From: Nitrospirota bacterium
GTDB lineage: Bacteria; Nitrospirota; Leptospirillia; Leptospirillales; Leptospirillaceae
Direction of reading: 5' to 3'
NCBI GenBank assembly: GCA_023481175.1
Contig: JAMCWM010000003.1
Location: forward strand, 1 to 64,000
Length of the DNA stretch: 64,000 nucleotides
A program made the translations under genes and the position numbers. Of the stretch, positions 14,264-61,825 are shown in pieces. Each line of letters starts with the position of its first letter. The first letter of the stretch is position 1. The notes under the pieces were generated by a model that did no database searches, was not told the origin of the DNA, and saw only the letters and a list, made by a program, of their open reading frames with translations.

Positions 14264-14338
14264 GCGGGATTAACTCAGCGGTAGAGTGTCAGCTTCCCAA
14301 GCTGAAGGTCGTGGGTTCGAATCCCATATCCCGCTCCA
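14264..14338 (+). tRNA. tRNA-Gly (anticodon CCC), CCA encoded
   Basis: The acceptor arm GCGGGAT/ATCCCGC, the anticodon stem TCAGC/GCTGA with loop TTCCCAA (anticodon CCC), and the T-arm with GTTCGAATC are all present. CCA is encoded at 14336-14338. It is the integration target of the element that follows. Confidence 0.95.
14300..14338 (+). other. Inferred attL (3' half of tRNA-Gly)
   Basis: Tyrosine recombinases placed next to a tRNA normally recombine within the tRNA 3' half. The integrase stop lies 24 bp from the tRNA end and its gene points toward it. The exact core cannot be set because no second copy (attR) of the tRNA 3' end is visible to 64000. Confidence 0.45.
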
Positions 14339-18522: not shown

Positions 18523-19044
18523 GTCTCAGTCACCAAGCCACTGAGCTGGCGTTGAAAACCTGCCCCAGGAAAATTGTCACCAGTGACGGACAGTCTCAGT
18601 CACTAGGCCACTGAGCGGGCTTTGAAAACTCGATCCGGGCACTTTTCGGGGCTGAGTATTTTGCAGTCTCAGTAACCAGGCCACCGAGCTGGCTTTGAAA
18701 ACCATGAGGGTGTGTACTCAAGTCTCAGTAACGAAGCCACTGAGCAGGCTTTGAAAACCTGGATGGCGTTGAAATACGGGGGGTGGATCAAATGTCTCAA
18801 TAACCAAGCCACTGAGCAGGCTTTGAAAACTAGGCACGAGCAGGCGAACGAAAGGATGGACACATGTCTCAATAACCAAGCCACTGAGCAGGCTTTGAAA
18901 ACCCGTTACCGCCTGGACACTCCCTTGTGGATTGACGTCTCAATAACCAAGCCACTGAGCAGGCTTTGAAAACCCGTTACCGCCTGGACACTCCCTTGTG
19001 GATTGACGTCTCAATAACCAAGCCACTGAGCAGGCTTTGAAAAC
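18523..19044 (-). CRISPR. CRISPR array: 8 repeats of 37 bp, 7 spacers
   Basis: Repeats start at 18523, 18593, 18666, 18722, 18794, 18866, 18937 and 19008. Spacers are 33, 36, 19, 35, 35, 34 and 34 bp. On the minus strand each repeat begins GTTTTCAAAGCC and contains the stem AAGCC/GGCTT. Repeats 5-8 are identical, while 1-3 carry substitutions, so the young (leader) end faces the effector gene and transcription is probably leftward. Spacers 6 and 7 are identical. No cas1 or cas2 is seen in the window. Confidence 0.95.
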
Positions 19045-19190
19045 CCTCTTCTTCTTTCTTCTTGCCGGGAAAGGCTTTTTTCCAAATATTTCGCGAACCC
19101 CTTCTTCGCCCTCGTCTCTTCCCGTTCCGATTCCCTCTTTCCGGGCTCGGACGCTCATGTTTTTGAACCTTTCGCGAACCTTCCGGTTTT
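19045..19190 (-). promoter_or_regulatory. Probable CRISPR leader
   Basis: 146 bp between the effector stop and the youngest repeat, without an ORF of its own. It holds two copies of TTTCGCGAACC (19089-19099 and 19170-19180), 81 bp apart. Leader status is inferred from repeat degeneration at the opposite end of the array. No clear -10/-35 was identified. Confidence 0.5.
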
Positions 19191-30800: not shown

Positions 30801-31736
30801 ATGAGCCTTCAGGCAATGGACTGGGCCCTTCGGAAAGTCCGGGGGCTTTCTCCAACACAAAAACTGATTTTGATCTGTCTGGGCAATCATGCCGGCCCCG
30901 ATGGGACCTGCTGGCCTTCCCAATCCGTGATTTCGGAATATACGGAACTCTCGCGGGAAACGATTTACAGAAACCTGTCAGACCTGGAAAAGCGGGGTCT
31001 CATCCGGTCCATCCATCGCCGGGACCAATCCGGGCGGGATCTGTCTAAGAGCTACGTCCTGAATCTTCCAAAAGAAGAGGGCTCCCGTACGGAAAAATCC
31101 CCCGGTGAGACGGAAAGTCTCAGGGGTGAGACGCAGGATCTCACCGGGGGGGCAAAAATGACAAGGGGGAGAGACGGAAAGTCTCACCCAGTAAAATCAA
31201 GGTTTTCTGAACATCGGGGTGAGACGCAGGATCTCACCGGTGAGACGGAAAGTCTCAGGGAGGGAGACGCAGAATCTCAGGGGGGTGAGACGCAGAGTCT
31301 CACCTCTAAAGAGAACCAGTCAAGAAAAGAATCAGTCATTAGAACCAAAAGAATAGAAACAAAGACTCATGTCGAAATCGCAAAATCAGCGATTGTCGAC
31401 CCGCCTCCGCTTCCGGATCTTCCGATTCTCTGGAAAACCCATTGCCCATCGCTTCCGCAGATCCGGGAAACAACACAGAAACGGCGAGACAAAATTCAAA
31501 TCCGACTCAAGGAACATCCCGATCCATCCTGGTGGGTGGAGGTGATGACCGCGATAGAAAAATCCGCATTCTGCCGGGGAGAGAATCGGTCCGGATGGAG
31601 GGCGACGTTCGACTGGCTCATCGAAAATCAGGACAACGCGATCAAGGTTCTGGAGGGCAAATATTCCGGAGCCAACAGATCTTCTTCGAGAGGAAACTTC
31701 GACTTCGATGTCGAAAAATGGGCGAGGGAAGGATGA
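30801..31736 (+). CDS. Replication initiator (lambda O-like, HTH_36)
   Basis: 311 residues with GGGAG upstream. The N-terminal winged helix ('LSPTQKLILICLGNHAGPDGTCWPS', 'ISEYTELSRETIYRNLSDLEKRGLI'; each a separate segment) is that of phage O-type initiators and HTH_36 proteins. The middle is a low-complexity linker rich in 'GET' repeats because the DNA there is an iteron array. The C-terminal domain ('WWVEVMTAIEKSAF...WRATFDWLI') is common in phage replication proteins. It probably binds its own iterons and recruits the loader encoded next. Confidence 0.8.
   Translation: MSLQAMDWALRKVRGLSPTQKLILICLGNHAGPDGTCWPSQSVISEYTELSRETIYRNLSDLEKRGLIRSIHRRDQSGRDLSKSYVLNLPKEEGSRTEKSPGETESLRGETQDLTGGAKMTRGRDGKSHPVKSRFSEHRGETQDLTGETESLREGDAESQGGETQSLTSKENQSRKESVIRTKRIETKTHVEIAKSAIVDPPPLPDLPILWKTHCPSLPQIRETTQKRRDKIQIRLKEHPDPSWWVEVMTAIEKSAFCRGENRSGWRATFDWLIENQDNAIKVLEGKYSGANRSSSRGNFDFDVEKWAREG
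31104..31304 (+). repeat. Seven 21-bp iterons inside the initiator gene: putative replication origin
   Basis: Units start at 31104, 31125, 31168, 31218, 31239, 31262 (20 bp) and 31284. Each is a partial palindrome with arms GGTGAGAC and GTCTCACC or close variants. Units 1-2 and 4-5 abut exactly. Placement of iterons within the initiator coding sequence is the lambda O arrangement. Confidence 0.85.
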
Positions 31737-44815: not shown

Positions 44816-45076
44816 CCGGAAAGAGCCCTCGGGGGTGCCCCCCGAACCCCCCTTTCAGGATCTAACACAGCACGCACCCTGCGGGGTGGGCCGAAAATCC
44901 AGCGTGCGTGCCGATGCGGGGAGGAGTACTCCGCATATGCTCCCCGTTCTCAGATGCTCCTTCCGGGGAGCACGAGGCATTCCGGAGCGAGGAGCACCCA
45001 AGGAGCATGCTCCTCGAAAAATCGCCTCCGGGCGAGAAGATAGGACAGGGACGGAGCACAAGAAAAAGGAGAAGAA
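44816..45076 (+). repeat. Inner inverted repeat, left copy; oriT candidate
   Basis: About 260 bp, near-identical to the reverse complement of 55162-55421. It contains the palindrome AGGAGCATGCTCCT (45001-45014), several GGAGCA elements and the hairpin-prone CACCCTGCGGGGTG. It lies just upstream of the ribbon-helix-helix and relaxase operon, the usual place of oriT. Confidence 0.7.
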
Positions 45077-45253
45077 ATGAGTCTCGAAAGGCTAGAGGTG
45101 AATCTACCGGAATCGATCAAATCGGCCCTCGCAAAACAGGCCTCAAATGCTCCCCGGTTTCAGATGCTCCTTCCGGGGAGCACGGGGCGTTCCGGAGCGA
45201 GGAGCATCCAAGGAGCATGCTCCTCAAAAAATCAGCCCCGGTCCGGAAGATAG
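45077..45253 (+). pseudogene. Truncated copy of the ribbon-helix-helix gene
   Basis: The first 23 codons ('VNLPESIKSALAKQA') match the start of the gene at 45287, then the frame enters a second copy of the upstream repeat and stops at 45253. The same ribosome site and leader precede both copies, so it arose by tandem duplication. Confidence 0.75.
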
Positions 45254-45286
45254 GACAGGGAGGGAGCACAAGAAAAAGGAGAAGAA
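45148..45286 (+). repeat. Second, tandem copy of the oriT-like repeat
   Basis: About 139 bp, direct repeat of 44938-45076 with few changes, including AGGAGCATGCTCCT at 45211-45224. It ends at the start codon of the RHH gene. Confidence 0.75.
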
Positions 45287-45748
45287 ATGAAAAGACAACA
45301 GGTGAATCTGCCGGATTCGATCAAATCGGCCCTCGTAAAGCGGGCCGCTTCGGAAGGGAAATCGGCTTCGGAACTTGCGCGGGAATGGATCGAAGAGCGA
45401 ATCAATAGTCCGTCGGGAACCGTTCCGGGATCCGATCCGGTGGAGGCCTTCAAGAAAGCGGTCCGGGAGCTGAAGAAAGAAGGGGAAGGCGAGGAGGATT
45501 ACCGGGTGATCCTGGCCGACCTAGGTTTGGAATCGCTCAAGACAACGCCCGGGCCGGATGGACTTTCGCCTTCCATTGTCCGCTATCTGGTCGAAACGCA
45601 GGCCCGGATCGATTTTCTCCTCCGGAAGGTGGTGGACTTCGGGGATATGCCCGGGGTCACTCCGGGAGAGCGTCAGGACTGGGTGAAGGTTTCCGAACTG
45701 AACGCCCGGGAGGCTCTCAAAAATCTCAAACTCGGAGGGGTGAAATGA
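45287..45748 (+). CDS. Ribbon-helix-helix relaxosome protein (NikA/TraY-like)
   Basis: 153 residues. 'MKRQQVNLPDSIKSALVKRAASE' in parts and 'SASELAREWIEERI' form an RHH domain. The remainder is helical. It is directly upstream of the coupling protein and relaxase and downstream of the palindromic repeats; such proteins bind oriT and recruit the relaxase. Confidence 0.75.
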   Translation: MKRQQVNLPDSIKSALVKRAASEGKSASELAREWIEERINSPSGTVPGSDPVEAFKKAVRELKKEGEGEEDYRVILADLGLESLKTTPGPDGLSPSIVRYLVETQARIDFLLRKVVDFGDMPGVTPGERQDWVKVSELNAREALKNLKLGGVK

Positions 45749-46154: not shown

Positions 46155-47438
46155 ATGTTCGGATTTGGAAAAAAAGAAGAGAAGCGATCTCCCCTCTCCG
46201 GGCCGGGACTGAAATTCCCTCCGGGGACGGAACTCGAGCACATCCTCATTCCGGCCACGACCGGATCGGGAAAGACCCAGTTGATCCACATACTCCTGGA
46301 CAGCATCCTCCCGGGGGTCGACGGGGTGCCCGGCAAAGAAAAAGCCCTGATCACCGACAGCGGCGGAATTCTCGCCTCCACCCGGGGCCATCGTACGGAT
46401 CGGATATTGAATCCCTTCGACGAGCGGTCGAAGCGCTGGAATCCCTTTTGCGAGATCGAAAACGACTGGGACTACGCCTTTGTCGCACAAAGCTGCATCC
46501 CCACGGACGGGGCCTCCCCGGCGGATGTCGATTTCAGACGGCACGGGCAGGCTCTTCTGGCCGATATCATGCGGGGACTCAAAAAAGCCGGGAACCCGAA
46601 TCCCCGGGAAGTCCAGCGTCTTTTGTCCAGTCTCAATCCCGAGGCGCTGGAGCCTTATCTGACGGGATCGGAGTCCATCGGATTCCTGGCTCCCGGGAAC
46701 GACCGTTTTTTCGGGAGTGTGGCCCAGATCAGCTCCGAAGCGCTTCGTTCCTGGGCCGTTCTGGACCCGGCCGGGGATTTCAGTATCAGAAAATGGATCC
46801 GGGAGGGGAAGGGATGTCTCTTCATGACCTATCAGGACGCCCAGCTGGCCATGATCCGCCCGCTCGTCGGGGCGTGGTTGTCACTTGCGATCCGGGAGGT
46901 TCTCTCCCTCTCCCCCGACGACTCGCGGAGAGTGTGGATGGTCATGGACGAACTGGATTCGCTCGGGACCGTGAGCGGCCTCTCCGACGCGCTCACCCGG
47001 GGGCGCAAGTACGGTCTGTCGACGATCGCGGCGATCCAGAGCATCGCCCAACTCCGCCAACGATACGGAAAGGACGGATCGGAGGTCCTGGACGCCTGTT
47101 TCGTGAACAAACTCATTATGCGTCAGGGGTCGTTCGAGGACGCCAAGCACTGGAGCGATTATCTCGGTCAGCAGGAGGTCGAGCGGATCGTGAGAAACGA
47201 AGGGGGCACAAAAGGGGGAACCGGGGCCGGGAGCGAATCGTTCGGAAGACACGCGCAGCGGGAAACCCGTCAGCTTGTTCTTCCTTCCGAGTTGCAGGAA
47301 ATCCCGAAGTTCTGCGGATACGCCCGGATTTCCGGCTTGTCCGGAATCCGGCCCTTCCGATTCGAATGGCGCGATTATCCGAAAGTCGCGGAGCCCTTCG
47401 TTCCGAAACGGACTCCGGATCCGGCCGAGGCGGATTGA
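46155..47438 (+). CDS. Type IV coupling protein ATPase (VirD4/TraD-like), soluble
   Basis: 427 residues without the usual N-terminal membrane helices. Walker A 'IPATTGSGKTQL' (about 33-43), Walker B 'WMVMDELDSL' (about 258-267), 'ALTRGRKYGLSTIAAIQS' and 'NKLIMRQ' are the VirD4/TraG motifs. It brings the relaxase-DNA complex to the secretion channel. GGAGGA upstream. Confidence 0.88.
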   Translation: MFGFGKKEEKRSPLSGPGLKFPPGTELEHILIPATTGSGKTQLIHILLDSILPGVDGVPGKEKALITDSGGILASTRGHRTDRILNPFDERSKRWNPFCEIENDWDYAFVAQSCIPTDGASPADVDFRRHGQALLADIMRGLKKAGNPNPREVQRLLSSLNPEALEPYLTGSESIGFLAPGNDRFFGSVAQISSEALRSWAVLDPAGDFSIRKWIREGKGCLFMTYQDAQLAMIRPLVGAWLSLAIREVLSLSPDDSRRVWMVMDELDSLGTVSGLSDALTRGRKYGLSTIAAIQSIAQLRQRYGKDGSEVLDACFVNKLIMRQGSFEDAKHWSDYLGQQEVERIVRNEGGTKGGTGAGSESFGRHAQRETRQLVLPSELQEIPKFCGYARISGLSGIRPFRFEWRDYPKVAEPFVPKRTPDPAEAD

Positions 47439-47439
47439 C

Positions 47440-50412
47440 ATGGCGCTCGGACGGAACATCACGGCGGCCCAGGGGGAGACCTACTACCGGAAGGACGACT
47501 ACTACCTGGAGAGGGAAGGAGGGGACGAGCACAAGCTGGAATGGACCGGGGCCCTGGCCTCCGAACTGGGGCTTTCGGGAAAAGCCTCCGCGGAGGACTG
47601 GAAGAACGCGCTTCACGGGCATTTCCCGGGAGGAATCGAAATTCAGGGCGGGAGCTTCAAGGATCCCGAGACCGGCGAACTCCAGAAGCGGGCCGGAACG
47701 GATTTCGAATTTTCGGCCCCGAAGTCTTTTTCCATCCAAGCCCTTGTCCATGGGGACGACCGGCTGATCGAAGTCCACCGGAAGGCGGTGGACGCGGCTA
47801 TGGGCTACCTGGAAGAGCAGGTGGGGGCCCGGAGGGGACATGCCGGAAAGAATTGGGAGACGACCGGAAAGGCACTGATCGGGCGCGTCACGCACATGAC
47901 CAGCCGCGCCGGAGATCCCCAGCTTCACGATCACGGGGTGTTCCTGAACATCACGAAAAATTCCGACGGCGGGTACCAGGCGATGACCAACGACCGGATG
48001 ATGAACTACCAGCGGCCGGCGCAGGAGGTCTATTTCGCGGAGCTCGCCCGGGGATGCGAAGAAATCGGATACGTCCTGGAAAAAGGGCAATACGGGGAGC
48101 CGGAGCTTTCGGGCTACACCCGGGAGCAGATCGAGCATTTTTCGAAAAGACTGTCCGACGTCGACAAATATCTGGAAGAGCATTTCGGGGTCACGCGGGA
48201 AACGGCGACCCCGGCCCAGAAGCGTCTGGCCGCGGAACATTCGCGCGAAGCGAAAAAGGCGCGGGAACTTGAAGGGCTTCAAAAAGAATGGGAGGCCCGG
48301 GCCAGGGAGATCGGGGCGGAAAAGATCGTCCCGGGGAAGACGAGACGCCTTTCCCGGGAAAAGCGCCTGGAGATCGCGCGGGAATCGCTCTCGTTCGCCG
48401 TGGAACACCACACGGAACGGGAATCGGCCGTCCCGGAAGGGGAACTGTTGCGGACGGCGCTTGCCGCCGGGCGGGGAAAAATCGCGATGGAAGACATGAA
48501 AAAGGCCGTCGATGAGGCGAAGGCCTCCGGGGATCTGATCCGGCAGGCGGGGGCGGGATCGAAACAGAATCTGATGACCAGTCGGGAAGCTCTGGAGAGG
48601 GAGAAGCGGATCCTCTCCTTCGAAAAAGCCGGGCGAAAAAAGGTGGAACCCGTCATGAACCCTCTCCGGGCGGAAGCCGCCCTGAAAGCGATCCAGGAGA
48701 AAGAGGGGCTTCGGCTGAACGCCGAGCAGGCTGCTGCGGCCCGGATGATCCTGACCACGGACAACCGCTATTCCGGCATCAACGGCTATGCCGGCGTCGG
48801 AAAGACGACGATGCTGAAACCGGCGATCGAATCTCTCCAGAACGGCGCGGCGTTCTCCGCCCTGACGAACGCCGGGTACAAGGTCATCGGCCTTGGGCCG
48901 CAGCACAGCGCCGTCCATGCCCTGAAAGACGCCGGTATCATCGAGGCCCGGACGCTCCAGTCGTGGCTTGCGGATCGGACGGCGGGAAAGAGTCTGGACG
49001 TCCGAACGGTTGTCGTGATCGACGAGGCCGGACTGACCAATGCCCGCGACATGGAATCTGCCATGCGCCGGATCGAGAAGGCGGGCGCGAGAGCGGTCCT
49101 GGTGGGCGACATCAAGCAGTACGAAAGCGTGGCCGCCGGCCCGGCCTTTGCCCTCCTCCAGAAGGCGGGAATGGAAACGGTCTATGTGACCGAGATGCAA
49201 CGGCAGAACAAGGCGCCGGAGAACGTGAAAGAGGCGGCCCGGCTTTCCGTCGAGTCTCCGGAAAAGGCCCTGGAGAAGCTGGAAGTCCGGGAGATCCGGA
49301 ATCCGGGCGAGCGGTACAGGGCCATGGCGGACGAATACCTGAAGTCGAAGAATCCCCGGGAAACGCTTTGCCTCACCGGGACCCACGAGGCCCGGAAATC
49401 GGTCAACGAGAACGTCCGGGAAGCCCTGGGGCTTTCCGGAAAGGGGCACGGGTTCACCCGCTACGAGGCCGGAGATTTTACCGAAGCGCAGAAGAAACGG
49501 ATCGACAGCTACGAAGAAGGCCAGGATATCCGGTTCGGGAAGGACTACCGGAGCCTCGGGGTCAAGGCCGGGGAGATCGGGACGGTCCGGGCCGTGGACC
49601 GCGAGAACGGAACCGTCTGCCTCAGGATGCAGGACGGACGGGATATGACGATGACTCCCCGGGAAATGAGCGGGAAGAGCCACGAGATCGGGAAGACCCT
49701 GGCAATCGAGTTGACTGCCGGAGACCGGATCCGGATCACCGGAAACGAGCGGAAAAAGGAGGGGATCACCAACGGAATGCGCGGGGAGGTGATCGCATCG
49801 GATCATGGGTCCCTCAGTGTCCGTCTGGACAACGGGAAGAGCTTCGAAATGAAACCGGGAGGCCGGCCCCTCGAGATCGACCACGGATACGCCCAGACGG
49901 GACACAGCGCCCAGGGACTGGGGGCCGAGACCGTGATTCTGGATCTTCCGTCGAACTCCCGGACCCTGAACCGGCGGAGCTTCTACACCAACCTGACCCG
50001 GACGAAAGGGGCCGTTACGGCCTTCACCGACGACCGGGAAAGGCTTACCGGGGCCGTCACCCGGGAGTCGAACAAGACCATGGCCCTGGACGTGGAAAAG
50101 GAAGTCCGGGAAAAAGCGCGGGAGCGAAAAACGAGGGATCTTTCCGCCGAGCAGCGGTTCGGGGAGACGCCCGAACAAACGAAAGCCCGCTTCGAGAGGG
50201 GGGCGATCGAAAAGAAGATTCCGGAAGAAGGGAAAGAGCGGGATCAAAAGAAGGAGGAGAGGAAAGAGGAAAAGGGGAAGGGGCAGGAACACACCCAGGA
50301 GAAAGACCGCTCCGTGGAGCAAGGAGAACGACGAGTGGATCCGGTTCGGGAGGAAAAGAAGGAGGCTCCCCGGCGGGAACGGGAAAGAGGCCGGGACGGG
50401 ATGGGATACTAA
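47440..50412 (+). CDS. MOBF (TrwC-type) relaxase-helicase
   Basis: 990 residues from the ATG at 47440. The N-terminal relaxase has 'GETYYRKDDYYLE' (candidate catalytic tyrosines 15/16 and 21/22), 'FSAPKSFSIQALV' and the metal triad 'DPQLHDHGVFLN'. The C-terminal SF1 (RecD-type) helicase has Walker A 'GYAGVGKTTM', Walker B 'VVIDEAGL' and 'GYAQTGHSAQGL'. It nicks at oriT and unwinds the strand. The tail is highly charged and ends KKEAPRRERERGRDGMGY, a sequence shared with the MNT-HEPN protein. Confidence 0.95.
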   Translation: MALGRNITAAQGETYYRKDDYYLEREGGDEHKLEWTGALASELGLSGKASAEDWKNALHGHFPGGIEIQGGSFKDPETGELQKRAGTDFEFSAPKSFSIQALVHGDDRLIEVHRKAVDAAMGYLEEQVGARRGHAGKNWETTGKALIGRVTHMTSRAGDPQLHDHGVFLNITKNSDGGYQAMTNDRMMNYQRPAQEVYFAELARGCEEIGYVLEKGQYGEPELSGYTREQIEHFSKRLSDVDKYLEEHFGVTRETATPAQKRLAAEHSREAKKARELEGLQKEWEARAREIGAEKIVPGKTRRLSREKRLEIARESLSFAVEHHTERESAVPEGELLRTALAAGRGKIAMEDMKKAVDEAKASGDLIRQAGAGSKQNLMTSREALEREKRILSFEKAGRKKVEPVMNPLRAEAALKAIQEKEGLRLNAEQAAAARMILTTDNRYSGINGYAGVGKTTMLKPAIESLQNGAAFSALTNAGYKVIGLGPQHSAVHALKDAGIIEARTLQSWLADRTAGKSLDVRTVVVIDEAGLTNARDMESAMRRIEKAGARAVLVGDIKQYESVAAGPAFALLQKAGMETVYVTEMQRQNKAPENVKEAARLSVESPEKALEKLEVREIRNPGERYRAMADEYLKSKNPRETLCLTGTHEARKSVNENVREALGLSGKGHGFTRYEAGDFTEAQKKRIDSYEEGQDIRFGKDYRSLGVKAGEIGTVRAVDRENGTVCLRMQDGRDMTMTPREMSGKSHEIGKTLAIELTAGDRIRITGNERKKEGITNGMRGEVIASDHGSLSVRLDNGKSFEMKPGGRPLEIDHGYAQTGHSAQGLGAETVILDLPSNSRTLNRRSFYTNLTRTKGAVTAFTDDRERLTGAVTRESNKTMALDVEKEVREKARERKTRDLSAEQRFGETPEQTKARFERGAIEKKIPEEGKERDQKKEERKEEKGKGQEHTQEKDRSVEQGERRVDPVREEKKEAPRRERERGRDGMGY

Positions 50413-50429: not shown

Positions 50430-50612
50430 ATGATCGACGCATCGATGCTGCTTCACATGATCTCGGCCCTGGACACGCTGGAGAAGCTTCTTCCGGCGGA
50501 GGAGTCCGGCGAATATGCGGTCAAAAAAATGGAATGGGAAGCTCTCAAAAAAGCCTGCTGGGCCGAATACCGGGCCAAAGAGAAGAGCCTGGACAGGGGG
50601 ATGGGGATGTGA
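50430..50612 (+). CDS. Small hypothetical protein after the relaxase (60 aa)
   Basis: AGGAGG upstream of the ATG. Helical, '[18 protein letters not shown]'. Last gene of the mobilisation operon. No family. Confidence 0.55.
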
Positions 50613-50624
50613 AACCTCTTGTTA

Positions 50625-50759
50625 CCTAAGGTCCAAAAAATGTTTTGGGGACCTAGGGCCGTTGAGACAAGCTCAGGAAGCGGCCAGAGAGAAGAGGCAT
50701 GAGTCCTTTCAAAATAATAAACGAATTGACAAAGGGACGGTATGGGGTCATAATGTCCC
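50625..50759 (+). promoter_or_regulatory. Promoter and operator of the EcoRII-like operon
   Basis: TTGACA (50726-50731), 17 bp and CATAAT (50749-50754) form a near-consensus promoter. GGGAC/GTCCC arms (50735-50739 and 50755-50759) flank the -10. An inverted repeat CCTAAGGTCC/GGACCTAGG lies at 50625-50657 and may terminate or regulate. Confidence 0.7.
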
Positions 50760-50781
50760 AAAAATTTCCCAGAGGAGGGCT

Positions 50782-52041
50782 ATGAGTACCGACGATGAGA
50801 AAGGGCAGGCACTCAGTCTCTTGAAAGAAGCGAGGTCCCGTTTTACCAGGCAGGATCTCGCGACAAGGCTTGGTGTTTCTCCGAAAACAATCACCCGATG
50901 GGAGATGGCGGGCGTGCATCGTCCAGCGATCGTCGGGGCGGCTCTCCGCGAAATACTCGCCGCGCCAATTCAGTCAAAAAACTCTGGAAAATCCTTCACC
51001 TTCGTTGATCTTTTCGCCGGTATTGGCGGGATTCGGCTCGGATTTGAATCCGCCGGAGGTGAATGCGTCTTCACGAGTGAATGGAACGATTGGTCGAAAA
51101 AAACATATCTCGAAAATTTCGGGGATGGTCATCCTTTTGTCGGTGATATTACGAAGGTCGACGGAACTGACATCCCTGATCATGATATCCTTTTGGCAGG
51201 TTTTCCCTGCCAACCATTCAGCATCGCTGGTGTCTCGAAAAAGAACGCCCTAGGTCGACCGCACGGTTTCGAGTGTACAACTCAAGGGACGCTGTTTTTC
51301 GATGTCGCCCGAATTATCGCCGAGAAAAGGCCGCATGCCTTCCTTCTCGAAAATGTCAAAAACCTCCTGTCTCATGATAAAGGAAACACCTTTAAGATCA
51401 TCGTCCAGACCCTCAAGACAGAACTTGGATATGAAGTTCATCCGAAGGTGATCGACGCCAAATCATGGGTGCCACAGCATCGGGAAAGGATCCTTCTCGT
51501 CGGTTATCGGGAAAAGTCTCTGTTTTCATGGGATGACCTTCGGATTCCGGAGAGAGGACCTGTTCTTGAGTCCATCCTTCATCCGGAGGACGGGAGGGAA
51601 AAGCCGGAAGACCCATTCACTGTAGGACCTGATGGGAAGGTCCACTCAAAGTATGTTTTGACGGATCGGCTGTGGGCTTATCTTCAGGCTTACGCCGAGA
51701 AGCACCGGGCCGCCGGAAACGGGTTCGGTTTTGGACTCGTTTCCGGAAAGGATGTCGCCAGAACTCTTTCGGCGAGGTATTACAAAGACGGGAGCGAGAT
51801 TCTGGTTTCCAGGGGGACTTCAAAAAATCCGAGACGCCTTACCCCAAGGGAGTGTGCCCGCTTGATGGGCTTCCCCGACAGTTTCCGGATCCCGGTTTCA
51901 GACACGCAGGCGTATCGGCAATTTGGAAACTCCGTCGTTGTTCCGGTTATATCCGAAGTGGCCAAAATCATGGTTCCTCATGTCATTTCTGCCAAAAACT
52001 CTGAGAGAGCCGGAATTCTTGAAAGAATCCTTTCCGCATAG
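50782..52041 (+). CDS. dcm: DNA cytosine-5 methyltransferase (M.EcoRII/Dcm-like)
   Basis: 419 residues, GGAGG upstream. The N-terminal HTH ('[20 protein letters not shown]') is as in M.EcoRII/Dcm, which can autoregulate. C5 motifs follow: I '[16 protein letters not shown]', IV '[10 protein letters not shown]' with the catalytic Cys, VI 'FLLENVK', VIII 'VPQHRERI' and X 'YRQFGNSV'. Together with Vsr and an EcoRII-type nuclease, CCWGG is the expected site. Confidence 0.92.
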
Positions 52042-52047
52042 TGTCCT

Positions 52048-52500
52048 GTGGTAGATATCGTCGACAAAGCCACCAGAAGCCGCATGATGCGGGGCATCAG
52101 GTCCGGAAACACAAAGCCGGAAATTTTTATCAGGAAAGGTCTTCACCGAGAGGGATTCCGCTACCGGCTTCACGACCCGAAAGTCACCGGTCATCCGGAC
52201 CTTGTTTTTCCCAAATATCATGCGGTCCTTTTCATACACGGGTGTTTCTGGCACGGCCATGACTGTTCCCTCTTCCGTTATCCGGAAACCCGGAAGGAAT
52301 TCTGGGAGGAAAAGATTCGTAGGAACAGGAAACGGGACGCCGATGTCCAGAAAATTCTGACCGACGCCGGATGGAGGATCGGTCTCGTTTGGGAATGCGC
52401 TATGCGGGGTTGGAGGAAAATGGAAACAGCAGACTTAATCGAAACGCTTACCGATTGGTTGACGGGTGAGGAAAACAGAATCGAGGTTCCGAAAATATGA
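52048..52500 (+). CDS. vsr: Very short patch repair endonuclease Vsr
   Basis: 150 residues. 'DKATRSRMMRGIRSGNTKPE' (given as its parts), 'GFRYRLHDPKVTGHPDLVF', 'VLFIHGCFWHGHDC' and 'FWEEKIRRNRKRD' are the Vsr signatures including the zinc site. It repairs T:G mismatches from deamination of the methylated cytosine. Confidence 0.95.
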   Translation: MVDIVDKATRSRMMRGIRSGNTKPEIFIRKGLHREGFRYRLHDPKVTGHPDLVFPKYHAVLFIHGCFWHGHDCSLFRYPETRKEFWEEKIRRNRKRDADVQKILTDAGWRIGLVWECAMRGWRKMETADLIETLTDWLTGEENRIEVPKI

Positions 52501-53717
52501 AGGCAGGATATCTTTCGGAGTATTTCACCGGAGTTGCGGCGAAAAGGTTGAGCGCCGTTGAAGCAAGCCGGTTCGTAAGCCGTCAGCATGAGTTCAACGG
52601 AGTGGAATCCCTTAAGCGGATATTCGGACTGGCGACAGGAAAACAACGATACAAAGCAATATTTGTTTATCTGAACGATCATGACGAAGAAGCGGTGATC
52701 GATGAAGGGTTACTGACATGGTATGATGCCCGAGAGTCTCACGAAACACGTTCAGAGCATCGCCTTTATTTTCCGACGACCACTGTTTCCGAATGCGCGG
52801 ACGAAGGTGATCTTCTTGTCATTGGAAAACGCCCGGATGGATCCGTTCTTGTAGTTGTTGCACAAGGAGGATCTACCATAGCGAATCAAATACTATGGCT
52901 TTTCGGCTTGTCAAATTTGACTCATCCTGGATTTTCTATTCGTGAAGAACTTGGAACGGAACAGGACCGCATCGAATTTGCGGCCAGGACAATTCTGGAG
53001 CAAATAGGAGTTGAAACCGTCGAACCGGAAGAAACGCGTCTCGATGAAATGTTGAGACGATTCGGCGGAGTGTTTCCGGCAACGAGGGAATTTTCGGAAT
53101 ATGCGCGGTCGACACTGGACGATGTTTCTGCAATGGATGATCCGGACGTCGCGATCATGGCATGGATGGAGCGGGAAGAAATCCTTTTCCGAACACTAGA
53201 AAAACACGTCGTTGCCGACAGGTTGACCAAGGGTTTTTCAGGGGATGTCGACGGGTTCTTTTCTTTTTCCCTCTCGGTCCAAAATCGAAGAAAAAGCCGG
53301 GTTGGATATGCCCTCGAAAACCATCTTGAAGAGGTATTCACAGTACATGGTGTCCGGTTTGTTCGTTCGGCAATAACTGAAGGCCGGTCGAAGCCGGATT
53401 TCCTTTTTCCCGGATCCGTCGAATATCATGACAAAAAATTCAAGCCTTCTCTCTTGTCGATGCTTGGAGTTAAGAGTTCATGCAAGGATAGATGGAGACA
53501 GGTTCTTGCTGAAGCTGACCGAATCCAGGAGAAACATCTTCTAACACTTGAAACGTCAATCAGTGAGAATCAGACGGACGAAATGCAGGTAAAACGTCTA
53601 AAGCTTGTGGTCCCCAAAAAACTTCACGAAACTTTTTCTTCAAGGCAACAGTCATGGTTAATGGACTTGCAAAGTTTTGTCCTTGAAATCCTGAGGAAAC
53701 AAATCCCCCTGAAATAA
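52497..53717 (+). CDS. EcoRII-like restriction endonuclease
   Basis: 406 residues, close to EcoRII. N-terminal effector-site domain (about 1-170: 'GYLSEYFTGVAAKRLSAVE', 'KRIFGLATGKQRYKAIF') and the C-terminal nuclease with 'GYALENHLEEVF', 'SKPDFLFPG' and 'GVKSSCKDRWRQVL'. EcoRII-type enzymes need two CCWGG sites. The start overlaps vsr by 4 bp, so M, Vsr and R form one operon. Confidence 0.92.
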   Translation: MKAGYLSEYFTGVAAKRLSAVEASRFVSRQHEFNGVESLKRIFGLATGKQRYKAIFVYLNDHDEEAVIDEGLLTWYDARESHETRSEHRLYFPTTTVSECADEGDLLVIGKRPDGSVLVVVAQGGSTIANQILWLFGLSNLTHPGFSIREELGTEQDRIEFAARTILEQIGVETVEPEETRLDEMLRRFGGVFPATREFSEYARSTLDDVSAMDDPDVAIMAWMEREEILFRTLEKHVVADRLTKGFSGDVDGFFSFSLSVQNRRKSRVGYALENHLEEVFTVHGVRFVRSAITEGRSKPDFLFPGSVEYHDKKFKPSLLSMLGVKSSCKDRWRQVLAEADRIQEKHLLTLETSISENQTDEMQVKRLKLVVPKKLHETFSSRQQSWLMDLQSFVLEILRKQIPLK

Positions 53718-53986: not shown

Positions 53987-54069
53987 ATCATTTAACTCGT
54001 TCCAAAATATAATTTCAGAATATTCTTCTAGTTTGTTTGATGATATGATTGTGCAATGAGGAGGGGACT

Positions 54070-54924
54070 TTGGCCGTTTCGAGCATAGTCGACAAGAGCA
54101 TAGTCGACAAGAAAATCGTTTCTTCCGACGCCGGGCAACAGGTGGCGAGACGGGTCTTTTGCGTTCTTTCCCGACACCGATCAGCCCTCTTTGACCGGTT
54201 CGGGCTCGATCGCCTGGCGGTCTTCGGATCCACGGTACGGGGAGAACATCGAAGAGGGAGCGACATCGACATCCTGGTGCGCTTCGTCCCGGAAAAGGAG
54301 AAGGACTTCGCCTCGGAATCCTCCGATTATTACGGAGTTCTTTTCGAAATCAAGGAGGCTCTGTCCGCTATTCTGAACCGCAAGCGGATTGACGTGAGCG
54401 ACGAACGACATCTCTGCCCCCAGTACAGGGAATCCATCCTGAAAGAGGCGGTGGATGTTCCCGCCTCCAGCGAGCCATTTGTTTTCGAGAAAAGGGGTCC
54501 CATGGAGAAAACGGTAAAAAAGTATTTCGAGGATATTAAAGACGCGAGTGATTATGTCAAAGAAAAGATCCAGCATAAATCACTTGAAGACTATCTCAAT
54601 GACAGGGATCTTCGTTCCATTATAGAACGACAACTGGAAATTATCGGCGAAGCCGTGGGCAAAGCCTCGAAGATCGACCCGTCCGTCAGAGAGAACCTGC
54701 CGGAAGCCGGAAAGCTGATCGGGCTCAGAAACCAACTTATCCACGGATACGACTCCATCATCCATCCCAAGATATATCGGAATGTGAAGGAACTTCTTCC
54801 CGACCTCGAACGGAAAGTCGACGAGCGGCTGAATATTCTGTCGAATCAGGAAAAGGAAGGGGAGGAAAAGAAGGAGGCTCCCGAACGATCCCGCCAGAGA
54901 GGACGGGACGGGATGGGATATTGA
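54070..54924 (+). CDS. Fused MNT nucleotidyltransferase and HEPN protein (MntA-HepT in one chain)
   Basis: 284 residues from a TTG with GGAGGGG. N-terminal MNT: 'VFGSTVRGEHRRGSDIDIL' contains the GS-x10-DxD motif. C-terminal HEPN: 'LRSIIERQLEIIGEAVGKAS' in parts and 'GLRNQLIHGYDSI' with the R-x4-HxY RNase motif. MntA normally inactivates HepT by AMPylating it and is encoded separately; here both are one chain, though an internal ATG at 54502 could give free HEPN. The last 20 residues equal the relaxase tail (KKEAP...RGRDGMGY). Confidence 0.85.
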   Translation: MAVSSIVDKSIVDKKIVSSDAGQQVARRVFCVLSRHRSALFDRFGLDRLAVFGSTVRGEHRRGSDIDILVRFVPEKEKDFASESSDYYGVLFEIKEALSAILNRKRIDVSDERHLCPQYRESILKEAVDVPASSEPFVFEKRGPMEKTVKKYFEDIKDASDYVKEKIQHKSLEDYLNDRDLRSIIERQLEIIGEAVGKASKIDPSVRENLPEAGKLIGLRNQLIHGYDSIIHPKIYRNVKELLPDLERKVDERLNILSNQEKEGEEKKEAPERSRQRGRDGMGY

Positions 54925-54945
54925 ATCTCTCGCCCTACCTCCATT

Positions 54946-55062
54946 TTTCTCCTTTTCCTTGTGCTCCATCCCTGTCCTATCTTCCGTTCCGGAGCCGCTT
55001 TTTCGAGGAGCATGCTCCTTGGATGCTCCTCGCTCCGGAAGGCTTCGTGCTCCTCGGAGGAG
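54946..55062 (-). repeat. oriT-like repeat, partial inverted copy
   Basis: About 117 bp in inverse orientation to the 45-kb repeats, with AGGAGCATGCTCCT at 55006-55019. It follows the MNT-HEPN stop. A short unique stretch (55063-55161) separates it from the fuller copy; no gene is seen there. Confidence 0.75.
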
Positions 55063-55161
55063 CGCCCCTTCGCGAGTCCGATAATCTCTCCTTTTTTCCC
55101 CCTTCTTTCCTCAGAAAATGCCTATTTTTCTGCCGAGCACCGGAACCATTTCAGGCTTCCG

Positions 55162-55421
55162 GTCTTATTCATTTCACCATGCTCCGTCCTTGTCCTATCT
55201 TCCGTTCCGGAGCCGCTTTTTCGAGGAGCATGCTCCTTGGATGCTCCTCGCTCCGGAATGCCTCGTGCTCCCCGGAAGGAGCATCTGAGACCGGGGAGCA
55301 TATGCGGAGTACTCCTCCCCGCATCGGCACGCACGCTGGATTTTTGGCCCACCCCGCAGGGTGCGTGCTGTGTTAGATCCTGTAAAGGGGGTTCGGGGGG
55401 AACCCCCGAGGGCTCTTTCCG
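55162..55421 (-). repeat. Inner inverted repeat, right copy; second oriT candidate
   Basis: About 260 bp, reverse complement of 44816-45076 with few differences; AGGAGCATGCTCCT at 55224-55237. From 55422 to 55661 the DNA becomes AT-rich and holds no convincing gene. Confidence 0.75.
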
Positions 55422-55666
55422 GGGGCGTTCTTTCCTCCCGGAAAAGGGAGGCCGGAAATCACGGATCCTTTCCTCCCAAGGATCCTCTCCACTTCCCATC
55501 AGTCGGGAAGCTCCCGACAGGTCTTGTCTTTTCTATTTTCTGATTTATAATCCTTGTATAAGATCAATTCAGATAAGCTATCTGTAAATAATGGAAATTT
55601 TAAGCATTATTATCGCATTATTCTTAGAATTTGACCGTCTTTATAAGACAATGGAGGTGAAATGGT

Positions 55667-55690
55667 AACCAACCAACCAACCAACCAACC
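55667..55690 (+). repeat. Tetranucleotide repeat (AACC)6 in a translation start region
   Basis: Six perfect AACC units directly after ATG GTA at 55662, which has GGAGG 4 nt upstream. Loss of one unit or gain of two would join this ATG in frame to the HD-GYP gene; at six units the frame stops at TGA (55698-55700). Confidence 0.85.
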
Positions 55691-55716
55691 ATTTCGCTGA
55701 TTTAGCGCCTCATTTT

Positions 55717-56400
55717 TTGACCCCTGACCATGTCTCAATCCTCACCCGGGACTTTTACCGGACAATGATTTCAGTGGTCGACGAGTTGATGGCGATGCTC
55801 GATCGATGGACCTTCGAAACCCGGACCCATTCCTGCCGTGTCACCCTACTGTCATTGCAAATCGGGGAATCGTTGGGCCTTGCCCCTAAAGAGCTTTTCC
55901 GGTTGGGAGCCGGATCCCTTCTGCATGACATCGGAAAGATCCGGATTCCCCAGGAGATCCTGATGAAACCGGGCCCTCTTTCTCCGGAGGAATGGAGGGT
56001 GATGAAAATGCATCCTCAGTTGGGGTGTGAGATTCTTGAACGTTTTCCTCCTCTTCGGGTCGCCGGTGATCTGGTCGTCCAGCACCAGGAGCGATGGGAT
56101 GGGAGCGGTTACCCGAACGGCCTCAAAAAGGAGGATATTTGCCTGAATGCCAGGATCTTCGCCGTGGCCGACAGTTTCGACGCAATGACGAACCAGCGGT
56201 CCTACAATACTGTCCGTCAGATCGACGATGCGATCCTGGAACTGCTCCATGAGTCCGGATCTTTGTACGATCCGCATGTGGTCAGAAGTTTCATTTCGTT
56301 TGCACATCCTCCCGACGACAATGAGATAATGGACAACATGGAGAGATTTCTGGAAGAAGTGTTCCCTCCAGAGCGCTTCATCCAGACCTTCCTGTCCTGA
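55717..56400 (+). CDS. HD-GYP domain c-di-GMP phosphodiesterase
   Basis: 227 residues if the TTG at 55717 is used; ATG at 55765 or, after slippage, ATG at 55662 are alternatives. 'THSCRVTLLSLQIGE', 'LLHDIGKIRIP', 'MKMHPQLGCEIL', 'VQHQERWDGSGYPNGL' and 'ARIFAVADSFDAM' are the complete HD-GYP set. No sensor domain, so it is a stand-alone hydrolase. A microsatellite in front of it suggests phase-variable expression. Confidence 0.9.
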   Translation: MTPDHVSILTRDFYRTMISVVDELMAMLDRWTFETRTHSCRVTLLSLQIGESLGLAPKELFRLGAGSLLHDIGKIRIPQEILMKPGPLSPEEWRVMKMHPQLGCEILERFPPLRVAGDLVVQHQERWDGSGYPNGLKKEDICLNARIFAVADSFDAMTNQRSYNTVRQIDDAILELLHESGSLYDPHVVRSFISFAHPPDDNEIMDNMERFLEEVFPPERFIQTFLS

Positions 56401-57891: not shown

Positions 57892-58608
57892 TCAATTTCT
57901 CCGACGAAGGACTCGGGACAATTCTCCGATCGGAACGGGCTTTCCGTAATGCCAGCCCTGCCCGGAAACGCATCCGATCTGTCCGGCGAACCGGGCCTGG
58001 GCCTCGGTTTCGATGCCTTCTCCCAGAATCCTGACCGCCGTCCTTCCGATCGCCCGCACGACGCCCTCGACAAGATCCCTGTCGTTTTTTCTCGTTGTCT
58101 GAACGAGGGTCCGGTCGACCTTCACGAAGTCGACCGGCAGGTCCAGGAGCCGGGAAATATTCGAATGCCCGGTTCCGAAATCGTCGACCGCGAGCCGGAA
58201 TCCCCAACGCTTCGTTTCGAGAAGAACCGACGTTTGCTCCGGGCCGAGCTCTTCCTCCAGAACTTCGATGACCGGGAGGACCCGGCTGGGAAAACGGTCC
58301 CGCCAGGAAAAAAGAAACGAAGAAACGCATTGGTGGGGCGAGAGATTCAGGAAGGCGAAAAAGGAATCCGGAAGAGCCGGCAGAGTCGAAAGATCGGAGA
58401 GCGCCCGCTCCATTGTCCACCGCGTGAAACCTTCCCATTCGTTCTCCCGTGCGATCCGGGCCAACATCTCGTCCGGAGGACCGTGCGGAGGCCGGAGGAG
58501 AGCTTCGGCACCTTCGATTCGCCCGCTCGCGAGATCGACGACGGGTTGCCAGTGCAGACTGGCCCCCGACAGAAAATCGGGTTGGGCTCTTTCCGGGGCA
58601 AGAGGCAT
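57892..58608 (-). CDS. EAL domain c-di-GMP phosphodiesterase
   Basis: 238 residues from the ATG at 58608 (GAAGGA upstream). Stand-alone EAL with 'GAEALLRP' (EAL motif), 'NLSPHQ', 'IEVLEEE', 'VDDFGTGHSN', 'VKVDR', 'EGIETE' and 'QGWHYG': all metal and catalytic residues present. Its upstream region carries the palindrome at 58636. Confidence 0.92.
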   Translation of the reverse strand: MPLAPERAQPDFLSGASLHWQPVVDLASGRIEGAEALLRPPHGPPDEMLARIARENEWEGFTRWTMERALSDLSTLPALPDSFFAFLNLSPHQCVSSFLFSWRDRFPSRVLPVIEVLEEELGPEQTSVLLETKRWGFRLAVDDFGTGHSNISRLLDLPVDFVKVDRTLVQTTRKNDRDLVEGVVRAIGRTAVRILGEGIETEAQARFAGQIGCVSGQGWHYGKPVPIGELSRVLRRRN

Positions 58609-58635
58609 TTTTCCTTCTTTCAATTTTTAAATATT

Positions 58636-58827: not shown

Positions 58828-58847
58828 GGGTACGGGCGGAAGGAGTG

Positions 58848-59405
58848 ATGACCTGGAAGGATCGAATCCGGTGTTGTTTATGGATGGGAGTGATGGGAAT
58901 GAGTATGACGCTCCCAGGATGCGTCTCGTCGGGCGTCTCTTTCCACCAAAAAGACAGATCGATCCTTCAGGACGATTCCGCATCGAAGATCCTGTCGATC
59001 GCCGCCTTGCGCGTCTCCCGGGACTGGGACAGTCTCCTGGCCTACCAGAGCCATCTCCCTCCCTCGGCCCTCGGAATCTCCCGGATTCAGAAAACGGGCA
59101 CCATGGGGCGCCGGTTCTCGCTCAAATATGTCGGGCCGGTGGAACCCTTCCTCCGGCGTCTTGGACAAACCGTCCGCTGGAGCATCAAGGTGATCGGAAA
59201 AAGACCGGCATCCCGACCCATGATCGAAATCCGGGCAAAAAAAGAGCCTCTTTACGACATCCTCCGGGATGCCGGCGTGCAGGTGACGCCTGCCGCCTGG
59301 ATCGTTCTTCGGCCCGAGGGCCGGGAGATCGACCTCGTTTACCCGCCACCTCTCCCAACCACTCCAAAGAGTCAGTCGAAAGAAGGGCTTGCGAATGAAA
59401 AATAG
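58848..59405 (+). CDS. dotD: T4SS outer-membrane lipoprotein DotD/TraH
   Basis: 185 residues, AAGGAG upstream. Lipobox LPGC (Cys at about 25). 'IEIRAKKEPLYDILRDAGVQ' is the DotD C-terminal domain pattern. It stabilises DotH in the outer membrane. First of the dotDC-sigma-dotB-icmT operon. Confidence 0.85.
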   Translation: MTWKDRIRCCLWMGVMGMSMTLPGCVSSGVSFHQKDRSILQDDSASKILSIAALRVSRDWDSLLAYQSHLPPSALGISRIQKTGTMGRRFSLKYVGPVEPFLRRLGQTVRWSIKVIGKRPASRPMIEIRAKKEPLYDILRDAGVQVTPAAWIVLRPEGREIDLVYPPPLPTTPKSQSKEGLANEK

Positions 59406-60222
59406 GCTTGCCCTGACGATCTTCGCTCTTTTCCTTTGCCTCTCGTCCGAAATCGCATTCGCGGCCGGGTTGTCTCCCGCTTCGAATTCCCGCCAGACGC
59501 TCCCGACCCTCGGGCAGGCCGAACATCCCAAAAAACCGGATGACAGGGTCCGAAAGAGGGCGTTGCGCGAAGCCGCCCAGAAAAAGGCGGCCCTCTCCTG
59601 GGGCGCCCAGACCGGCTATGCGAAAAAAACGGAACTTCGGAACCGGTGGCTCATCGCCCATGCCCAGGATCTCGACCGGATCTTCAGCTTCCGTCCGTTC
59701 CTGGCGGAAAACGAGCATGTGCTCCTGCCGTCGGTGGATTCCGGCCGACGGGCCTTCAAACTCGAAACCGCGACGACCTCGGCGGGGACTCTTGTCTCCT
59801 ACCGGATTCGCGAACCGGCCCGGCTCGTTTCCATCCCGCCCACCTTTCGGGACTATCTGGTCCTTTCGCCCGGGGTTCCGAAAAAGGTCGCCGCCCTTCT
59901 TCTTCCCAGGAACGCGAAAGAGAAAAAACGCTGGAAAGAGTGGACGGATCGGGGATGGAAAGCGGGGGAGAAACTTTCCGAACGGGCCTTCCGGATCGGA
60001 AGCCGCCGTCTTGTCCGCGCGATCGAGGGCCGGATCCGGTTTTATGAACTCTCCCTTGCCGGCCAGATCGACCGGCCCGACTGGGCCAGGTCCCCGGCCA
60101 CGGATCTCCGGACGGGAGAAGTCCTCGAGATCGGGGATACCGTTCTTCGAATTACGCGGCCCGCACGCTTTACGTCGTCCGACAAGTGGAAGCCGCTCGA
60201 GGTGAGGGAGGAGTCTCCTTGA
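59395..60222 (+). CDS. dotC: T4SS protein DotC/TraI
   Basis: 275 residues. Signal peptide ending 'IAFAAG'. 'ALSWGAQTGYAKKTELRNRWL' in parts, 'LDRIFSFRPFL', 'LVSIPPTFRDYLV' and 'LTRIT'-like end match DotC. It overlaps dotD by 11 bp. Together with DotD it places DotH. Confidence 0.88.
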   Translation: MKNRLALTIFALFLCLSSEIAFAAGLSPASNSRQTLPTLGQAEHPKKPDDRVRKRALREAAQKKAALSWGAQTGYAKKTELRNRWLIAHAQDLDRIFSFRPFLAENEHVLLPSVDSGRRAFKLETATTSAGTLVSYRIREPARLVSIPPTFRDYLVLSPGVPKKVAALLLPRNAKEKKRWKEWTDRGWKAGEKLSERAFRIGSRRLVRAIEGRIRFYELSLAGQIDRPDWARSPATDLRTGEVLEIGDTVLRITRPARFTSSDKWKPLEVREESP

Positions 60223-60530
60223 TCCGACGACATCGTGGAGAAAGAAAGATCGAATTTCTGAAGGAAATCGGGCTCGGAGAACCGGACATTTCCCGTACGG
60301 AATGGGAGATTGACCGGATCCTCCGGCATCTTCCGGAACGATCCCGAAGAATCGTGCGGCTTCGATACGGCATTGGAACGGGAATTTCCTGGACATTGAA
60401 GGAAATCGCCCAGGAGTTCGGGATATCCCGCCAACGGGTATGGGAAATCAAGCGAAGCGCGATCCGGACGCTTCGGGACAAAGGCGCTTCCGAATCGGGC
60501 GGAGACAGAGCGGGGAGGATCGACCCGTGA
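60219..60530 (+). CDS. Sigma-70 region 4-like protein
   Basis: 103 residues from a TTG overlapping the dotC stop, with GGGAGGAG upstream. 'ILRHLPERSRRIVRLRYGI' and 'TLKEIAQEFGISRQRVWEI' followed by 'RSAIRTLRD' is the -35-binding HTH of sigma-70 factors; regions 2 and 3 are missing. Possibly a transcription regulator of the transfer genes. Confidence 0.8.
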   Translation: MIRRHRGERKIEFLKEIGLGEPDISRTEWEIDRILRHLPERSRRIVRLRYGIGTGISWTLKEIAQEFGISRQRVWEIKRSAIRTLRDKGASESGGDRAGRIDP

Positions 60531-61825
60531 CCCTTCCCGAAATCCGCGATCCGGTCCGCTACGACCAGGGGAGTCTGGACGAGCTTCTGAAAACCCTTGT
60601 CCAGGCTGGGGCCTCGGATATCCTCCTCATTTCGGAGTCTCCCGTCCGGGCCTATCTTCGCGGACGATGGGAAACGGTGGGGATGCGGGCGCTCAAGACC
60701 TATGAGCTCGCCGATCTCCTGAATGCGATCGACCAGACGAATTCCTCCTCCCGGGTCGCCTCGGGAGAGTCCCGAAACTTCGCCTACGAAGTCTCGCTCG
60801 GATCCCGGACATCGCGATCCCGCTTTCGGATCAACGCCTCCGGGGTCCGGCGGTCCGGCGACCGGGACCTGAAGATCGTTCTTCGGACCATTCCCGACAC
60901 GCCGCCCCCCCTCGATTCGATGGGGCTTCCTCCGGAGCTTCTGGAGGCCCTGTTTCCCCTGGACGGGCTGGTCGGCGTGGCCGGAGCGACAGGATCCGGA
61001 AAATCCACGTTGTTGGCCGGAGTCCTTCGGGAAAAGCTCGAACGCGGGGGCTGCCATATCGCCACCGCCGAGGCGCCCATCGAGTTCGTCTACGACAAGG
61101 TGGAAACGCGGAACACGGGCGTCATCGCGCAAGGAGAAGTTCCGACGCATCATCCCTCGTTCGGAAAGGCCGTCGAAGAGATGCTCCGGCAGAAGCCCGA
61201 CGTGATCCTGGTCGGGGAATCCCGGGACAAGGAGACGATCGAGAACACGATCCTGGCCTGCCAGACGGGGCATGCCGCCTACACCACGGTCCACACCAAC
61301 GGCGTCGGAGAGACGATCGGACGAATGGCCGAGGCCTTTCCCGGGTCCGAGCGAGACGCGGCGGCCAACAAGCTCCTGGCGGCCACACGGGTCATGATCC
61401 ACCAGAGGCTTCTCAGAAAAGCCGACGGGTCCGGGAGGGTGCCGATCAGGGAGTGGCTTGTCTTCGACGACGACGTCAAGGGGGCTCTGTTCTCCGAGCC
61501 TTTTTCCCGCTGGCCCTTCCTGATCGGGGACATTCTCCGGGAAAAAAGGCAGAGCGCCGCGCAGGACGCCGAACGCGCCTTCGGGGCCGGGCTGATTTCG
61601 CGGTCGGACTTCCTTGCCGTCGGGGGAAGATCCAACGCTCGAGAAGTTTTTGGACAAAAAGGGGCACAGACCCAAAGGGCACTGCCGGCGGAGAACGACG
61701 CGAATGCGCTTTGGGAGATCGTCAGGCTGTTCTCGGGGGCGATCGACCCCCTGATCGCGTGGCTCATGTCCGTTCGAAAGATTCTCGCCAGGTTTTTGGC
61801 GAATCGAACGTCGGGGGGAGCGTAG
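60527..61825 (+). CDS. dotB: T4SS ATPase DotB/TraJ
   Basis: 432 residues from GTG (GGGAGGAT). PilT/DotB ATPase: Walker A 'GVAGATGSGKSTLL' (about 150-160), 'TAEAPIEFVYD' (Asp box), 'LRQKPDVILVGESRDKETI' and 'GHAAYTTVHTNGV' (His box). It energises the Dot/Icm-type apparatus in the cytoplasm. Confidence 0.93.
   Translation: MTLPEIRDPVRYDQGSLDELLKTLVQAGASDILLISESPVRAYLRGRWETVGMRALKTYELADLLNAIDQTNSSSRVASGESRNFAYEVSLGSRTSRSRFRINASGVRRSGDRDLKIVLRTIPDTPPPLDSMGLPPELLEALFPLDGLVGVAGATGSGKSTLLAGVLREKLERGGCHIATAEAPIEFVYDKVETRNTGVIAQGEVPTHHPSFGKAVEEMLRQKPDVILVGESRDKETIENTILACQTGHAAYTTVHTNGVGETIGRMAEAFPGSERDAAANKLLAATRVMIHQRLLRKADGSGRVPIREWLVFDDDVKGALFSEPFSRWPFLIGDILREKRQSAAQDAERAFGAGLISRSDFLAVGGRSNAREVFGQKGAQTQRALPAENDANALWEIVRLFSGAIDPLIAWLMSVRKILARFLANRTSGGA

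Follow-up and report, generated by a model that had tools for sequence, protein, structure and literature searches.

The HD-GYP locus and its integrative conjugative element

The locus lies in a 64,000-nucleotide stretch of DNA (hereafter the window) from the draft genome of a Nitrospirota bacterium, an iron-oxidiser-like organism, and consists of an open frame for a predicted c-di-GMP phosphodiesterase of the HD-GYP type with a perfect tetranucleotide repeat at its 5' end. The features of the locus and of the mobile element around it are as follows, with coordinates referring to the window except in the last entry:

14289-14338, plus strand: attL-like 50-bp direct repeat, equal to the 3' part of tRNA-Gly(ccc)
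14362-15378, minus strand: tyrosine integrase of the element (PF00589, E=4e-33)
46155-50412, plus strand: TrwB-type coupling protein and MobF/TrwC relaxase
55524-55551, plus strand: candidate sigma-70-like promoter, TTGTCT-N16-TATAAT (consensus match only), in an AT-rich leader of 35% GC
55653-55657, plus strand: Shine-Dalgarno sequence GGAGG, read from the sequence, 4 nt 5' of ATG 55662
55662-55664, plus strand: ATG, inferred native start of the HD-GYP gene (from the sequence, the ribosome site and homologue N-terminal lengths), out of frame at six units
55667-55691, plus strand: (AACC)6 + A tetranucleotide tract, proposed slippage switch, with six full units at 55667-55690
55669-56400, plus strand: HD-GYP open frame, predicted c-di-GMP phosphodiesterase, 243 codons plus stop
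55698-55700, plus strand: TGA that closes the off-frame peptide of 12 codons read at six units, from in-silico translation of the sequence
55717-55719, plus strand: TTG, the only in-frame start of the HD-GYP frame before the internal ATG 55765, without a ribosome site
57892-58623, minus strand: second c-di-GMP phosphodiesterase, EAL type (PF00563, E=6e-39)
58845-61825, plus strand: DotD, DotC/TraI and a DotB-like ATPase of an I-type conjugation system
contig 101589-101638 (C28; L114:17589-17638), past the window end: second 50-bp att copy

The tRNA-Gly(ccc) gene itself occupies 14264-14338, with the tyrosine integrase next to it, and the two 50-bp repeats enclose 87.3 kb. Integrase, att direct repeats, relaxase, coupling protein and T4SS are all found in this one segment, which further encodes DotH, a TrbI-like protein, a ParM-like protein, PilS and a shufflon-type PilV. 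Carriage on a mobile element had been part of the original prediction, and the att repeats, the integrase and the transfer genes now delimit that element as an integrative conjugative element (ICE) in tRNA-Gly, on which the HD-GYP gene rides; its excision and transfer are predicted from these genes. A syntenic element (DotC 78% and relaxase 74% identical) was identified in the complete genome of another genus, G015. The EAL phosphodiesterase has a counterpart at the corresponding place of the G015 element (68% identical) and is therefore a backbone gene, whereas the HD-GYP gene of that element (47%) is found at a different place and the HD-GYP gene is thus variable cargo.

With regard to the enzyme, the HD-GYP identity proposed at the outset was borne out by family, sequence and fold. 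The product of 55669-56400 matched PF13487 (HD_5, E=1.4e-37) as well as PF01966 (HD) in a Pfam search and matched the trinuclear HD-GYP structure 4mcw by sequence at E=7.8e-32, and a Foldseek search with its predicted fold retrieved 4mcw, 4r8z and 9rbz with a probability of 1.00 each. It is thus a bona fide HD-GYP protein. The frame is intact over 243 codons, with no further stop or frameshift, and nearly all of the metal residues are kept; the conserved HD-GYP residues include Glu50, His54, His86-Asp87, His115, His139, Asp168 and the GYP at 147-149. Gln replaces the second His of the HHE motif, both here and in the closest homologues, which are 57% (G017) and 58% (G016) identical and come from two other genera of the family; because of this substitution, the metal centre is possibly different from the trinuclear centre of 4mcw. 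The enzyme is predicted to hydrolyse c-di-GMP; it should be noted that 3'3'-cGAMP is an alternative substrate for some HD-GYP members (5z7c, among the matches). The host genome contains 24 GGDEF matches, and therefore c-di-GMP would be present for the enzyme to act on.

The repeat tract and the inferred native start of the HD-GYP gene

The tract consists of 6.2 copies of AACC with a 100% match in the tandem-repeat measure and lies inside the first 10 codons of the HD-GYP gene. A TAA at 55666, immediately before the repeat, limits the open HD-GYP frame to 55669 onwards. At the assembled six units, the frame of ATG 55662 reads MVTNQPTNQPFR, 12 codons, and then stops. The unit length is no multiple of three, so that the number of units decides whether the HD-GYP gene is in frame with this ATG: in silico, five units gave MVTNQPTNHFADLAPHF... 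and the full-length protein, seven gave the short peptide MVTNQPTNQPTISLI, and eight restored full length. We calculated anti-Shine-Dalgarno energies for the candidate starts, and that of GGAGG at ATG 55662 was the best (-10.6 kcal/mol, within the top 4% among all ATGs in the window), compared with -4.0 kcal/mol for ATG 55765 and +0.6 kcal/mol for TTG 55717. Thus, the original prediction had described the site accurately: GGAGG and the ATG lead into (AACC)6, translation stops after 12 codons at six units and is restored at five or eight, and both the TTG and the internal ATG have poor ribosome sites. An in-silico scan of the HD-GYP frame revealed no non-ATG start codon between the repeat and TTG 55717. 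In the leader, an Rfam search returned no family above the gathering score, and RNA folding with varied unit number showed no structure dependent on unit count. A programmed +1 frameshift where the leader peptide ends (CGC-TGA) was also considered and set aside by inspection, this site being without a stimulatory Shine-Dalgarno sequence or slippery context.

Comparison with the homologues from G016 and G017 speaks for ATG 55662 being the native start. Between the repeat and TTG 55717, positions 55690-55716 encode the segment HFADLAPHF, which aligns without gaps to SFERLSDRA and SFEELTLRN of the G017 and G016 proteins, respectively, and MAFFT gave the same register. Upstream of the TTG, the gene frame scored +4 with both homologues, whereas the other two frames scored -14 to -21 and contained stops. 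This nine-residue homology is short, with shuffle p values of 0.04 and 0.02 that are not independent. When the first well-placed ATG of each homologue was taken as its start, the conserved Phe was residue 10 in both the five-unit product and the G016 protein and residue 14 in both the eight-unit product and the G017 protein; the N-terminus of the G015 homologue does not align with that of the HD-GYP protein. The strength of the ribosome site and the AlphaFold model (mean pLDDT 89.9) point to the same start. In the model, residues 9-16, between the repeat and the TTG, form a helix, and a start at ATG 55765 would fall in the middle of helix 19-47. The repeat-coded residues appear as a poorly ordered, low-confidence tail (about 61); since the repeat would encode only such a floppy N-terminal tail, changes in its length should be harmless.

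We also examined whether the tract exceeds chance. Markov models of the window (order 1-3) gave an expectation of 8e-7 to 3e-6 perfect six-unit tetranucleotide tracts in 64 kb, and the tract is accordingly a short tandem repeat (SSR) that is perfect, longer than chance and situated within or just before a frame. Across the approximately 503 kb examined (the window plus 439 kb from other stretches of the same genome), no second tract had four or more copies of a unit of 4 bp or longer, and (AACC)4 or longer was found nowhere else in the 2.32-Mb genome and in none of 60 other Nitrospirota genomes. Because the sampled part of the genome has no other such tracts, the host shows no evident habit of SSR switching. 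Taken together, the Markov models, the scans of the genome and its relatives, and the homologues support the view that the tract is non-random, that it lies between the real start and conserved coding sequence and that the gene is off at six units, in agreement with its proposed role as a potential switch.

Probable slippage switching and other explanations

We consider it fairly likely that the AACC tract is a translational phase-variation switch of the HD-GYP phosphodiesterase. Slipped-strand mispairing during replication would add or remove AACC units between ATG 55662 and the conserved coding sequence. With unit numbers equal to 2 modulo 3 (5, 8 and so on), the full enzyme would be made from the strong ribosome site, and with 6 or 7 units translation would end within about 15 codons and the enzyme would be off; the assembled six-unit allele would represent the off state. 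In the on state, c-di-GMP would be hydrolysed, and the cell and the recipients of the element would move to a low-c-di-GMP (motile, less adherent) state, such that slippage between on and off could produce a mixed population. In this model, unit-number variation at useful rates, enzyme activity and the phenotypic outcome are the inferred parts. One assembled copy, with six units, represents the locus, and no variation was seen there; a search for a second copy among the genome contigs, 60 relatives, viral contigs and plasmids yielded none close enough (best relative 57%). The slippage rate may be low, because six units are short compared with the well-studied tracts of Haemophilus influenzae, and a tract of this length is expected to mutate more slowly than longer ones. 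A rate of about 1e-4 changes per generation for tetranucleotide SSRs is cited for H. influenzae in one study (PMC2651432), which placed the SSR threshold at three to four units, with tracts of the six-unit size above expectation.

Several other explanations have to be weighed against this one. It is conceivable, although unlikely, that the gene is fixed and recently inactivated, a slip to six units having broken a frame that is now decaying with no ongoing switching. The single allele is off, the sampled genome has no other SSR switches, and the HD-GYP gene is variable cargo in this element family, placed differently in G015, all of which would fit. However, 243 codons without another stop or frameshift and with the catalytic residues kept speak against decay, and a six-unit tetranucleotide tract is itself improbable. 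Since such a tract is revertible by the same slip, an inactivated gene and a switch would differ in rate and selection.

Less probable still is that the repeat is irrelevant, with translation beginning at TTG 55717 or re-initiating once the 12-codon leader has ended at 55698, and with the ATG and the repeat being a leader peptide or chance. The main helix begins at residue 19, so that a protein started at the TTG would retain the HD-GYP domain in full, and re-initiation across about 19 nt is possible in principle. But the TTG, being without a Shine-Dalgarno sequence, is far weaker than the ATG in anti-Shine-Dalgarno energy (+0.6 vs -10.6 kcal/mol), coding homology extends 5' of it, and it would be an unexplained coincidence that the unique tract sits at this very position. 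The draft state of the genome (55 contigs, 89% completeness, 6% contamination) leaves some room for an assembly or consensus error, in which case the true count would be 5 (or 8) and fixed and the gene simply on; we regard this as very improbable, as the 25 bp are within easy span of ordinary reads, in which tetranucleotide miscounts are rare. A slippage-switched HD-GYP enzyme is thus probably what the locus encodes, a reading that is strongly predicted if unproven.

Relationship to known systems and further features of the element

Phase variation by SSRs has mostly been described for surface and restriction genes of host-adapted bacteria, and the original prediction, which named surface and restriction genes as its known targets, was accurate as far as we found. 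Mechanisms other than slippage have, however, already been published for phase-variable c-di-GMP phosphodiesterases (PMC9286219; review PMC11868660). As in the tetranucleotide SSR switching of H. influenzae (LOS genes, modA; PMC2651432, PMC3938747), the tract is located in the 5' end of the frame, out-of-frame lengths stop translation early and changes of one or two units reverse the state. In contrast with those genes, the target here is a c-di-GMP phosphodiesterase rather than a surface or restriction-modification gene, the host is a member of the Nitrospirota with no other such tracts in its sampled part, the gene is carried by an ICE, and switching is predicted. Stochastic on/off control of a c-di-GMP phosphodiesterase is shared with pdcB/pdcC of Clostridioides difficile (PMC9286219), in which an invertible promoter acts on transcription, and, as summarized in a review (PMC11868660), with the phosphodiesterase of the sfa operon of Escherichia coli, in which the control of transcription is epigenetic; here, slippage would shift the frame in translation. 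c-di-GMP enzymes that can reset the level of the host are also carried by other conjugative elements, namely SXT/R391 ICEs, plasmids and acidophile ICEs (PMC10333796, PMC10672970), but the examples in these papers are mostly diguanylate cyclases, whereas this element carries an HD-GYP and an EAL protein, the former behind a repeat tract. For leptospirillum-type biofilm-forming acidophiles, published work already treats mobile elements as a sink of c-di-GMP genes (PMC10333796).

In the open-access literature, whose coverage is incomplete, we found no published c-di-GMP enzyme switched by SSR slippage and no such switch on a conjugative element. The locus would represent a familiar type of switch acting on an unusual target; the predicted combination of slippage, c-di-GMP enzyme and conjugative element appears to be new, its parts being separately known. 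Chances seem about even that the ICE delivers a randomly set on/off lifestyle switch with each transfer, which would be the first c-di-GMP enzyme under SSR control and would place an SSR switch in the Nitrospirota, a phylum of free-living bacteria. If true, a mobile element would force its hosts to hedge their bets between an attached and a motile state.

The conjugation genes place the ICE close to R64-like I-type conjugative plasmids (thin pilus, PilV shufflon), with which it shares Dot-like transfer genes, PilS and a PilV-like protein with the shufflon N-terminus. It differs from these plasmids in that it is integrative and sits in tRNA-Gly, has a MobF relaxase and resides in a Nitrospirota host. 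Thin pilus genes and a MobF relaxase are combined on the ICE, and the PilV-like protein with a shufflon N-terminal domain (L113:9255-10454) could represent a second, inversion-based variation system on the same element.

Some other features of the element were also observed. An imperfect repeat of about 360 bp is present in inverted orientation at 44938-45289 (minus strand) and 54940-55300 (plus strand), with an internal palindrome (CGAGGAGCATGCTCC); the two copies flank a 9.65-kb block containing the coupling protein, relaxase, restriction-modification genes and an MNT-HEPN gene, and could serve as a recombination or transfer site. Within this block, a C5 methylase, a Vsr endonuclease and an EcoRII-C-type restriction enzyme stand in a row at 50515-53717, apparently an EcoRII-like system carrying its own mismatch repair gene. 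At 54049-54924, one frame has matches to a nucleotidyltransferase (NTP_transf_2) as well as to a HepT-like (HEPN) RNase domain, an apparent fusion of both halves of an MNT-HEPN toxin-antitoxin pair. Elsewhere, a 71-bp tandem repeat at 18722-19046 (4.5 copies, 2.5 of them identical) overlaps the end of the minus-strand frame 18940-19986, and four imperfect copies of an iteron-like 22-bp repeat (GGGGTGAGACGCAGAATCTCAGG) at 31216-31302 lie inside the frame 30801-31736, which has a helix-turn-helix match and is possibly a replication initiator.
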